A DNA stretch of 63,217 nt. Source: Bacteroidia bacterium. GTDB lineage: Bacteria > Bacteroidota > Bacteroidia > Bacteroidales > Prolixibacteraceae. Within the stretch, counting starts at the first letter, position 1. Each line of letters opens with the position of its first letter. Below the pieces are notes generated by a model that made no database searches, had not been told where the DNA came from, and worked only from the letters and a program-made list of their open reading frames with translations. The translations under genes were made by a program, and so were the position numbers. The stretch covers positions 1 through 63,217 of the forward strand of contig JAPLDS010000042.1 in assembly GCA_026391295.1 (NCBI GenBank), read 5' to 3'. This document shows, in pieces, positions 15,351-17,614 of the stretch.

Positions 15351-15447
15351 CCGACCCTATAACGATAGAAAGAGGTTTAATTTGCTCTAAATAAGTCGAG
15401 AAGTGAATATTTTCAACTTAAGAACCTTTTCGTAATTATATTTTATT

Positions 15448-15455
15448 TATTTTTG
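15448..15455 (+). promoter_or_regulatory. -7 promoter box of the aromatic amino acid operon
   Basis: TATTTTTG matches TAnnTTTG and lies 25 bases before the leader peptide ATG. A TTG is not obvious at the right spacing. The predicted transcript would begin around 15462. Confidence 0.5.
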
Positions 15456-15480
15456 TCCTACAAAATAAAAATTGACTTTA

Positions 15481-15546
15481 ATGAAAAACAGTACTTCTTA
15501 CTTTTGGTTTGATTATCTCGGCCTTCGCATGGGGACTGATCGGTAA
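15481..15546 (+). CDS. Leader peptide with consecutive Tyr/Phe/Trp codons (attenuation)
   Basis: A 21-codon frame opens with ATG at 15481 and stops with TAA at 15544. Codons 7-12 encode Y-F-W-F-D-Y, so five of six consecutive residues are aromatic and all three aromatic amino acids are represented. It is followed 27 bases later by a strong terminator and then by tyrA. This is the layout of trp/phe-type transcription attenuation: slow decoding at these codons when aromatic amino acids are scarce should prevent the terminator. No other function is likely for so short a frame. The coding potential is seen; the mechanism is inferred from known attenuators. Confidence 0.82.
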   Translation: MKNSTSYFWFDYLGLRMGTDR

Positions 15547-15607
15547 GGTATTGTAAACAAACAATATGATATCAAAAAGAGGTCTCCAGATAAGGAGACC
15601 TCTTTTT
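15530..15607 (+). promoter_or_regulatory. Attenuator: terminator with competing antiterminator
   Basis: The terminator stem is AAAAAGAGGTCTCC (15574-15587) with GGAGACCTCTTTTT (15594-15607), 14 bp around AGATAA, followed by further T residues. TGGGGACT (15530-15537) can instead pair with GGTCTCCA (15581-15588), including G-U pairs, which would break the terminator. UAUCUC (15514-15519), just at the last aromatic codon, can pair with part of GGGGA and would sequester the antiterminator when the ribosome moves on. The stems were found by eye and were not folded computationally. Confidence 0.75.
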
Positions 15608-15684
15608 TTAGCATTAAATCAACAACAGTAATTAAGGTTTAGCACCTTTAAAATACGCTGTTCTTTTTGATAAAATAAAGATAA

Positions 15685-16581
15685 ATGAAACTTGCAGTAA
15701 TTGGATTAGGACTTATTGGAGGGTCGATGGCGAAAGATTTGCGTAGAACCAAATTTGCCACCGAGATCATTGGCGTTGATAGCCATCCAAATAATGCGAA
15801 GATTGCCCTAGAAGTTGGCATTGTCGATCGAATTGAACTTCTGGAAAACGCAGTTAAAGAAGCCGATATCGTTCTTTTGGCGATTCCTGTCGATAAAATT
15901 GCTCAGGTACTCCCAACGATCTTAAGTCAAGTCTCTGCTTCCACTACAGTTATTGATGTTGGCTCAACAAAGCGCGAGATTACAGAAGCGGTTAAAGACC
16001 ATCCAATGCGTGGAAATTACGTGGCATCGCATCCAATGTCAGGGACCGAAAATAGTGGTCCTACAGCTGCCTTAGAACATCTATTTGAAAATAAAATATG
16101 CATAATTTGCGACCATCAGAATAGCAGGCCTCAACATTTAGCACTTGCAGAGAAGATGTTTCAAGCATTAGGAATGCCGATTGCCTATATGAGCAGTGAT
16201 GAGCAAGATCATACCACCGCTTTTATCTCTCACCTGCCGCATGCGACCTCTTTTGCTTTGGCGAATACTGTCCAGGCTATTGAAGATCGTAATATCATTT
16301 TTGATTTAGCTTCAGGTGGCTTTCAATCGGCAGTTAGGCTCGCAAAAAGTTCGCCTCAGATGTGGGGACCGATCTTCTGGCAAAACCGCGATTACATCTA
16401 TGAAGCCTTAGAATCCTATATTCATCACTTAGAAGAATTTAAAAAGAGCCTTAAAAATAATGACCACGAAAAGTTAATTGCCCTTATCGAAAACGCAAAT
16501 AACATTCGCGGAATCCTAGGGGGAGAGAACTCTTCCTTGACAAAAAAAGAAGAAACAATTATTAAATTTTATACAAAATAA
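15685..16581 (+). CDS. tyrA: Prephenate dehydrogenase
   Basis: TyrA converts prephenate to 4-hydroxyphenylpyruvate with NAD(P), on the path to tyrosine. The 298-residue protein has the N-terminal Rossmann motif VIGLGLIGGS (5-14) and DVGSTKREI. The prephenate-binding block contains ASHPMSGTENSGP and the conserved ISHLPHATSFAL. No ACT or chorismate mutase domain is attached. It lies directly behind the attenuator and just before the DAHP synthase/chorismate mutase gene, so it should be regulated by aromatic amino acid supply. Confidence 0.93.
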   Translation: MKLAVIGLGLIGGSMAKDLRRTKFATEIIGVDSHPNNAKIALEVGIVDRIELLENAVKEADIVLLAIPVDKIAQVLPTILSQVSASTTVIDVGSTKREITEAVKDHPMRGNYVASHPMSGTENSGPTAALEHLFENKICIICDHQNSRPQHLALAEKMFQALGMPIAYMSSDEQDHTTAFISHLPHATSFALANTVQAIEDRNIIFDLASGGFQSAVRLAKSSPQMWGPIFWQNRDYIYEALESYIHHLEEFKKSLKNNDHEKLIALIENANNIRGILGGENSSLTKKEETIIKFYTK

Positions 16582-16583
16582 TC

Positions 16584-16663
16584 ATGGGATTACAATTAGA
16601 CATACGCCCGATCAGGAACAAACGTTAGCAACAGCAAGAGAACTAGCAAAAGATAAAAGAGTT
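16584..16663 (+). pseudogene. Disrupted 5' end of the DAHP synthase/chorismate mutase gene
   Basis: ATG at 16584 opens MGLQLDIRPI, which looks like the usual start of this Bacteroidetes bifunctional enzyme, but the frame ends in TAG at 16626. The continuing protein is encoded in another frame from about 16607 (PDQEQTLATARELAKDKR) into the frame starting at 16664. Between the two the family expects about 20 residues including GPCSAE, which are absent in all frames. A frame-changing deletion of several tens of bases, natural or from assembly, explains this best. Confidence 0.7.
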
Positions 16664-17614
16664 ATGGTATATCGTGGCGGGATTTGGAAGCCACGTACCC
16701 GTCCAGGTTCATTCGAAGGAATGGGCTCTGTAGCTTTAGAATGGTTAAAACTTGCCAAGCAAGAGACTGGATTACTTACCGGAACAGAAGTTGCTAATGC
16801 CCAACATGTCGAGGAGTGTCTTAAAGCAGATGTCGATATCCTTTGGATTGGCGCTCGATCAACAGCTTCACCATTTGTGGTGCAGGAGATCGCTGACGTT
16901 TTAAAGGGAACTGATAAAATTGTAATGGTTAAAAATCCTGTTAATCCTGATGTTCAACTTTGGCTTGGGGCAATCGAAAGATTAAATCATGCAGGACTAA
17001 AAAATCTTGTTGCAATACATCGTGGATTTACTCCATTTGGCGAATCAAAATACCGCAATTATCCAAATTGGCAAACCGTTATTGAGCTACGCCAGCTTAT
17101 GCCAAACCTGCCAATTATCTGTGATCCTAGCCATATTGCCGGTAAACGCGAATACCTATTTGAGATCTCTCAAAAAGCATTTGACCTTGGATTAGACGGA
17201 CTGATGTTGGAATCGCATATCGATCCAAGCTGTGCTCTAAGTGATAAAGACCAGCAAGTTACGCCTGCTGATCTTTCAAAGATCTTAGATAAGTTGGTCA
17301 TTCGTTATGAGAATTCGAACGATCCTCAATTTGAAAATAAACTAGACGCTCTTCGTTCACGAATTGATGGCATTGACCATGAAATTATGGAAATCCTTGC
17401 CTCAAGAATGGAGATTGTAAAACAAATTGGAAACTATAAAAGAGACAATAAAGTTACTGCATTGCAGATTAACCGGTGGACTCAAATTATGGAAGACCGC
17501 ATTAAGACTGCGAAAAAACTTAATTTAGATGAGACCCTTATTAAATTGTTGTTTCAACTTATACATGAAGATTCAGTGCGTCAGCAAACCGAAATCATGG
17601 ACCGTGACTTGTAG
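16664..17614 (+). CDS. DAHP synthase/chorismate mutase, N-terminally truncated
   Basis: The bifunctional enzyme normally makes DAHP from PEP and erythrose 4-phosphate and isomerises chorismate to prephenate. From the first possible ATG (16664) the 316-residue product keeps GIWKPRTRPGSFEGMG, LVKNPVNPD-like VMVKNPVNPD, HRGFTPFGESKYRN and CDPSHIAGKR. It also keeps a C-terminal AroQ chorismate mutase domain (about 218-305, LDALRSRIDGIDHEIMEILASRMEIVKQIGNYKR). It lacks the first beta-strand and the GPCS motif, whose cysteine is a metal ligand in DAHP synthases. The DAHP synthase half is therefore probably inactive, whereas the mutase half looks intact. It is the second gene of the tyrA operon. Confidence 0.85.
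   Translation: MVYRGGIWKPRTRPGSFEGMGSVALEWLKLAKQETGLLTGTEVANAQHVEECLKADVDILWIGARSTASPFVVQEIADVLKGTDKIVMVKNPVNPDVQLWLGAIERLNHAGLKNLVAIHRGFTPFGESKYRNYPNWQTVIELRQLMPNLPIICDPSHIAGKREYLFEISQKAFDLGLDGLMLESHIDPSCALSDKDQQVTPADLSKILDKLVIRYENSNDPQFENKLDALRSRIDGIDHEIMEILASRMEIVKQIGNYKRDNKVTALQINRWTQIMEDRIKTAKKLNLDETLIKLLFQLIHEDSVRQQTEIMDRDL

Follow-up and report, generated by a model that had tools for sequence, protein, structure and literature searches.

The window, a 63,217-nucleotide contig (JAPLDS010000042.1) from a Bacteroidia bacterium of the family Prolixibacteraceae, carries a short leader region between rsgA and tyrA; all of the features described below lie on the plus strand. tyrA (15685-16581) encodes prephenate dehydrogenase (NF006307, 349.4 bits at a cut-off of 295) and is the first gene of an operon in which a DAHP synthase/chorismate mutase gene follows (16584-17614; PF00793 and PF01817), such that domain matches bear out the gene order that an earlier note on this DNA had proposed. 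Upstream of tyrA, a 21-codon frame followed by a stop codon (15481-15546) translates as MKNSTSYFWFDYLGLRMGTDR and contains all three aromatic amino acids, as that note had described, and Tyr7, Phe8, Trp9, Phe10, and Tyr12 are likely the regulatory codons. Shine-Dalgarno sequences are generally absent in Bacteroidota. A promoter-like TAnnTTTG box, seen in the sequence at 15448-15455 and not flagged earlier, resembles the −7 element of Bacteroidota promoters.

Past the frame, the RNA is predicted to fold into the proposed intrinsic terminator with a U-run, in which 14 pairs join 15574-15587 (segment 3, the 5′ arm T5) to 15594-15607 across a loop at 15588-15593. The 3′ arm T3 and the U-run together (segment 4) span 15594-15609, the T-run ending at 15609, and both arms are supported by the fold and by relatives. 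A promoter and terminator scan of the window did not pick up the 14-bp terminator, probably because the U-run belongs to the stem. T5 is also the 3′ arm of an antiterminator, the 5′ arm of which is a segment here called G (segment 2, 15531-15537), with 15581-15587 as its partner. The 8-bp rival pairing put forward earlier, 15530-15537 with 15581-15588, is present, and two of its eight pairs are G-U. Two additional elements had not been noticed before. One is a stem between segment A (segment 1, 15488-15494) and segment B (also numbered segment 2, 15548-15554), which is supported by covariation, by a partner-swap test, and by the fold of the nascent RNA, where it extends to bases near 15501. 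The other is an inner antiterminator hairpin, in which the 15549-15554 part of B pairs instead with 15561-15566 of segment C (15561-15567) at a probability of 0.97 to 0.98 in the window fold, either without a ribosome or with a stalled one. The inner B:C hairpin is clear in the window's genus and variable elsewhere, and it is supported by the fold. Folding of the RNA, as the earlier note had suggested, gave the 243-nt leader a z score of −4.28, and none of 200 shuffles was equally stable.

Taken alone, the aromatic frame of the window is only mildly unusual, as 96 of 5,000 shuffles of the 400 nt before tyrA reached at least five aromatic residues in eight, and the tyrA loci of family genomes were therefore compared. 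A search of 140 genomes, the window's genome included, gave 125 with a tyrA match, and 122 loci were used after three with fragmentary tyrA matches were left out; the assignment to Prolixibacteraceae was taken from named records, and the leader of one locus (L014) was set by hand. A frame with at least five of eight aromatic residues was found within 400 nt before tyrA in 121 of the 122 loci, compared with 4 of 122 when the same criterion was applied to the opposite strand and with 3.6% of shuffles. The sole exception, L048, has just 288 nt preceding tyrA. A terminator-like hairpin with a U-run followed the frame in all 121 assessable loci, the window among them. The leader peptides vary yet keep the aromatic run (for example FYFWFGYLGLRMGTER, FFYWFYYFCSPIGIGR, YFWFYYPVFQQEIGE, and YFYFYFYYGSENGVRK). 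The earlier note had proposed a search for the same leader in relatives and had named a lack of conservation of the aromatic codons there as grounds for refutation; the opposite was found, as the aromatic run and the terminator are kept in 121 of 121 assessable loci. Eight of 11 loci from named records, including Maribellus maritimus (Maribellus lineage: Bacteroidia; Marinilabiliales; Prolixibacteraceae) and an uncultured Draconibacterium, had leaders identical to members of the set, and those eight loci seem to represent the same assemblies and hence not to be independent evidence.

Tyr and Phe codons are present in all 121 family leaders, and Trp codons are present in 83, in every one of which Trp adjoins another aromatic residue. 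All 13 leaders of the window's genus contain Trp. Among the 38 leaders without Trp are 28 of the 34 leaders of genus g6, to which L057 and L073 belong and in which runs such as YFYFYFYY occur (Trp is found in the other 6 of 34), as well as all leaders of genera g4, g5, g14, g19, and g22 (together eight leaders). Judged from the leader sequences, the amino acid inputs seem to have been re-tuned between genera, as in the Trp-free leaders of g6. The proposal that one switch senses all aromatic amino acids at once is supported, with the reservation that Trp is not universal (83/121) as Tyr and Phe are (121/121).

In 112 of 120 family loci, the leader ATG has a TAnnTTTG box no more than 60 nt upstream, compared with 4.4% of base shuffles. 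Of 121 family loci, 120 have the DAHP synthase/chorismate mutase gene after tyrA, and in only 16 was a same-strand rsgA found upstream, the loci reaching 0.3 to 4 kb in that direction. Because the box accompanies the leader, the same gene follows tyrA, and rsgA is rarely upstream, it seems that promoter, leader, and operon move together.

Pair counts were made on an alignment (A1) of 48 hand-chosen leaders out of the 121, which represent 14 of 23 genera; g4, g5, g9, g11 to g14, g19, and g23, which are more divergent, lie outside the pair counts and are included in the swap test, the helix test, and the folds of 121 loci. Three mutually exclusive stems were recognized in the alignment: the antiterminator G:T5, the terminator, and A:B, the last of which joins the codons just before the aromatic run to the bases just past the stop codon. 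G:T5 was paired in 99.4% of cells, and 36 cells, in four of its seven pairs, had two-sided changes; one pair is G-C 24 times, C-G 22 times, and A-U twice and is never broken. The covariation of G:T5 was 0.459 compared with a shuffled mean of 0.293, and A:B and the terminator core were paired in 93.2% and 94.6% of cells, respectively. Neither the covariation nor the share of paired cells of any of the three stems was reached by any of 500 shuffles, a test that kinship among the leaders can inflate. Both measures also exceeded every slid control for all three stems, the highest slid share being 73.8% (A:B). Two weaker measures separated the stems less sharply: the number of pairs with two-sided changes was reached by 2, 131, and 91 of 500 shuffles for G:T5, A:B, and the terminator, respectively, and the number of pair types was reached by 51, 22, and 139.

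When partners were swapped between the 23 genera, permutations as good as the true pairing numbered 0 of 20,000 for A:B and 1 of 20,000 for G:T5, and the own partner was better than the median swap in 23 of 23 genera for A:B and in only 15 of 23 for G:T5. An uninterrupted helix of at least 6 bp was present in all 121 loci for A:B, a few of these helices being mere A/T runs, and in 119 of 121 for G:T5. The score of a single helix exceeded the 95th percentile of shuffled spacers in only 72 of 121 loci for A:B and 71 of 121 for G:T5. The consensus fold of the alignment also proposes a possible hairpin between the aromatic run's end and segment G, which overlaps with coding constraint.

The specificity of the element was assessed with a covariance model (R1) built from the 48 leaders and searched in 60 family genomes. 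R1 matched 57 of the 60, including all 52 of good quality, and the best match adjoined tyrA in 57 of 57 matching genomes, places being compared by eye. The genomes without a match (G033, G076, and G121) had no tyrA match either. Eleven extra matches were found in 8 of the 57 genomes (E values of 1.2e-4 to 0.0099), and of the six that were inspected, one was a His leader before hisG and five had no aromatic leader. A second leader copy in the window's genome was considered and rejected, as the next R1 match there (E value of 0.022) is a plain terminator after an unrelated, repetitive 499-aa frame.

To model the effect of ribosome position, the window RNA was folded up to the end of the terminator 5′ arm with a ribosome footprint of 30 nt. 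The probability of G:T5 was 0.90 to 0.99 when the A site lay at any of codons 7 to 12 (Y F W F D Y); it was 0.67 at codon 13 and 0.00 at codons 14 to 22, the last being the stop codon. The probability was also 0.96 to 0.99 at codons 1 to 5 and 0.48 at codon 6. A stall on codons 1 to 5 would therefore permit antitermination too, and the aromatic codons, which make up the late end of the stretch where a stall permits modelled read-through, are not distinguished by position alone. Their composition and conservation set them apart. Among the 121 loci, T5 was paired upstream (P > 0.5) in 112 with a mid-run ribosome, in 119 with the ribosome on the last aromatic codon, in 37 with the ribosome at the stop codon, and in 74 without a ribosome, and upstream pairing was greater mid-run than at the stop codon in 115. 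With the ribosome at the stop codon, upstream pairing of T5 in the window was 0.62 by this looser measure compared with 0.00 for G:T5 itself.

Folded at full length, the RNA favored the terminator whichever ribosome state was modelled. A kinetic switch would be expected to behave in this way, and the argument for attenuation therefore needs folding during transcription. In nascent window RNA ending at 15554 to 15566, the A:B probability was 0.95 to 0.98. Once T5 had emerged and no ribosome was present, A:B fell to 0.00 to 0.01 and G:T5 stood at 0.79 to 0.87 at equilibrium. Because G:T5 outcompetes A:B under those conditions, termination in the absence of a ribosome is weakly supported; A:B is favored by covariation and disfavored at equilibrium, and its putative role as a protector in untranslated RNA thus rests on covariation and not on the energy model.

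We conclude that the leader is very probably a ribosome-mediated transcription attenuator of the trp/phe-leader type, which would pool the supply of charged tRNA-Tyr, tRNA-Phe, and tRNA-Trp. The locus has a frame rich in codons for aromatic amino acids, an intrinsic terminator, and a cognate biosynthetic operon downstream, as attenuators do, and pairing, covariation, and models agree on an antiterminator that excludes the terminator. Our data comprise the frame, its fixed position upstream of tyrA, alternative stems that are conserved and covary, and models in which folding depends on where the ribosome stands; we infer leader translation, the starvation response, and the direction of regulation. 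Transcription would start shortly after 15455, and a ribosome would initiate at 15481. When charged aromatic tRNA is scarce, the ribosome would stall on Y-F-W-F-D-Y and cover segment A, such that B could pair with C and G with the terminator 5′ arm, no terminator would form, and tyrA and the DAHP synthase/chorismate mutase gene would be transcribed. When supply is good, the ribosome would reach the stop codon and cover G and B, which would leave the 5′ arm free for the terminator at 15574-15609. If no ribosome loads, A:B would form first and may hold the antiterminator back. In silico, it is well supported that the leader would be a classical attenuator in mechanism and that the pooled aromatic specificity would be the variant.

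The absence of Trp from 38 of 121 leaders, comprising most of g6 and all of g4, g5, g14, g19, and g22, could indicate that the leader is essentially a Tyr/Phe attenuator in which a Trp codon is tolerated or incidental and provides no third input, a reading that we consider possible and on the whole doubtful. Consistent with a narrower specificity, trpE in the window's genome (contig C25, approximately 178.0 to 178.3 kb; L177/L226) is preceded by tandem Trp-rich leaders, MTKNISIWLWWGNTFLC and MEAKFWNQLYWRWQASKLIR, each frame being followed by a hairpin and then a U-rich stretch. Both frames were found in 13 of 14 assessable loci of the genus (15 were read), and an Rfam scan of the trpE leader locus L177 gave no match at an E value of ≤1. 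On sequence grounds, Trp appears to be served separately in the window's genus by the two trpE leaders. Against the absence of a Trp input, the window's genus keeps Trp in 13 of 13 leaders and the whole set in 83 of 121, always beside another aromatic residue, the modelled antiterminator probability is 0.99 with the A site on W9, and the second gene encodes a DAHP synthase, which acts in the pathway that all three aromatic amino acids share. Elsewhere in the window's genome, prephenate dehydratase had no convincing leader, the nearest candidate frame being MRFPVYFSPVFQGI.

Other mechanisms would produce parts of the same picture. The leader peptide shows unusual hydrophobicity and, within the genus, a conserved tail, as might be the case if the nascent aromatic peptide arrested the ribosome or sensed a free amino acid in the manner of TnaC rather than reporting codon starvation. 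Such sensing is improbable, as Tyr and Phe swap, Trp is replaced by Tyr or Phe between genera, and the tail and length vary; moreover, the tail is conserved because its codons pair in the RNA (G:T5). A terminator and antiterminator architecture is also common to metabolite- or tRNA-binding riboswitches, such as the T-box, alongside which the frame would be accidental. The constraint on both codons and stems and the length of the leader, only about 130 nt, make a riboswitch very unlikely, as does the outcome of Rfam searches, in which neither the window nor 20 related loci gave a hit at a family's cut-off, one tRNA gene in the related loci excepted, and no T-box covariance match was found in the same sequences. 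A known Rfam family was rejected as the identity of the leader on the same searches. Finally, a frame as aromatic as that of the window arises in 1.9% of shuffles, and it could in principle be a chance frame next to an ordinary terminator of the upstream rsgA. We give that explanation a practically negligible probability and consider it refuted by conservation, as 121 of 121 family loci share the layout though a same-strand rsgA is rarely upstream, and a promoter-like box accompanies the leader. The pooled aromatic attenuator remains the reading that we prefer.

Leader-peptide attenuation is a textbook mechanism in Proteobacteria and, to our knowledge, is little described in Bacteroidota. The enterobacterial Phe leader of pheA and pheST has a frame rich in aromatic codons, 1:2, 2:3, and 3:4 stems, a terminator, and an aromatic gene downstream. 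The window leader resembles it in having an aromatic leader frame, alternative stems, an intrinsic terminator, and an aromatic biosynthesis gene downstream; it differs in that its peptide combines Tyr, Phe, and Trp where the Phe leader relies on Phe only, and it belongs to another phylum and another operon. The Phe_leader family RF01859 was also the best weak Rfam match (30.2 bits and an E value of 0.0025, with a threshold of 55), compared with 25.6 bits on the opposite strand. The trpL attenuator works by ribosome-mediated attenuation, as does Bacteroid-trp, from both of which the window leader differs in having a single Trp codon (none in 38 of 121 family loci) and in preceding tyrA. Bacteroid-trp (RF01692) gave no match at an E value of ≤10 in 15400-15700 and none at its gathering threshold in the window or the 20 related loci. 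Leaders that respond to several amino acids are known from ilvGMEDA and thr, which, like the leu-phe leader of Lactococcus (RF01743), sense several amino acids through one leader; their specificities are for branched-chain amino acids, Thr/Ile, or Leu/Phe and do not include the aromatic triple. The leu-phe_leader model scored 16 bits in the window at a cut-off of 70.

Published work on related bacteria contains partial precedents. A Bacteroid-trp RNA has been listed for Bacteroidetes (PMC2864571). A 2021 transcriptome paper on Flavobacterium psychrophilum reported clues to leader-peptide attenuation before amino acid operons, a lack of Shine-Dalgarno sequences in flavobacteria, and a conserved, Rfam-negative structured 5′ element upstream of pheA in that species and other Flavobacteriaceae (PMC9723704). 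The pheA element is probably of the same kind as the class-level leaders described below and constitutes a close prior notice; the pheA section of that paper describes no aromatic leader, stems, or tyrA form, and its main text uses neither "aromatic" nor "tryptophan." In Bacteroides thetaiotaomicron, small open reading frames in long 5′ untranslated regions were found to be reminiscent of attenuation leader peptides (PMC7366714). They come from the same bacterial class and are likewise short frames in 5′ untranslated regions; they differ in that the passages on them name no amino acid operon, and "aromatic," "tryptophan," and "phenylalanine" are absent from the main text. In 2010, the authors of one study knew of no leader-peptide systems outside Proteobacteria and Actinobacteria except for the ermC leader and added a Firmicutes case of their own (PMC2965389), and a study on Actinobacteria found that phenylalanine and tyrosine operons there are not preceded by conserved RNA structures (PMC1262725). 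Among the titles and abstract openings listed from the open-licence literature, none describes a Tyr-Phe-Trp leader in Bacteroidota. The aromatic leader is unsurprising in kind and widespread, and it is apparently uncatalogued.

Similar leaders were found beyond the family. Strong tyrA matches outside Prolixibacteraceae gave 56 loci, of which six had too little upstream sequence and were left out; the remaining 50 came from 22 of 118 other genomes of the order and from 28 genomes of the class. The other genomes matched the window's tyrA weakly or not at all, with no match in 78 of 119 order genomes and 106 of 149 class genomes. In order and class genomes with a match, the frame immediately upstream of tyrA is mostly of a size typical of an aminotransferase. 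In 33 of the 50 loci, an intergenic frame contained six or more aromatic residues in nine, compared with 1 of 50 on the reverse strand. No aromatic leader was found upstream in the other 17, and the device is thus common and not universal outside the family. A terminator-like hairpin lay no more than 150 nt past the stop codon in 37 of 40 non-family leaders, compared with 3.75% of base shuffles. Moreover, among 32 of these 37, the region after the aromatic run formed a strong helix with the terminator 5′ arm in 25, compared with 14% of shuffles. The first gene after the leader was prephenate dehydratase in five of five loci checked, and the single next gene checked was an aminotransferase. Seven loci (L132, L133, L137, L141, L144, L146, and L207) have two successive aromatic leaders upstream of the operon that contains tyrA, and each of these leaders has a terminator-like hairpin of its own.

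Outside the aromatic pathway, a His-rich leader (MYTRHHHHGHHYFLQR) with a terminator lies directly before hisG on the minus strand of another family genome (L250, G115:C18:46600-48600). It is the R1 match with an E value of 1.2e-4, and its spacer after the stop codon resembles the spacer of the aromatic leaders.

A mixed-aromatic attenuator could well have been the ancestral means by which the class Bacteroidia controlled the synthesis of aromatic amino acids, located before pheA-aminotransferase-tyrA in many families and before a split-off tyrA-DAHP synthase/chorismate mutase operon in Prolixibacteraceae. Its inputs would have been tuned by swaps of Tyr, Phe, and Trp codons, it would have been doubled in several lineages, and it would belong to a wider set with the tandem Trp leaders of trpE and the His leader of hisG. 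The leaders across Bacteroidia may share a common ancestry. For a branched pathway, pooling the aromatic amino acids in one leader would be a simple way to control the steps that the branches have in common. Leaders that contain or lack Trp, both single and tandem, form a natural series in which the effect of codon content on the response can be tested, and the aromatic leader is an easily recognized RNA element for annotation that was absent from Rfam 15 in the scans here.

Two minor observations concern individual records. Compared with its nearest relative (L002), the DAHP synthase/chorismate mutase gene of the window has a 64-nt deletion near its start (16584-16660) that includes the GPCS-coding part and causes a frameshift. 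GPCS and an RGG-type motif occur in one frame in 115 of 120 family loci, the exceptions being the window and four loci of g19, and the broken DAHP synthase gene in the window assembly reflects either a pseudogene or an assembly error. Separately, a bin titled Odoribacter sp. (PNOH01000001.1, L217) has a leader identical to that of L040, a family locus from genus g2 of Prolixibacteraceae, and the Odoribacter title may therefore be wrong.
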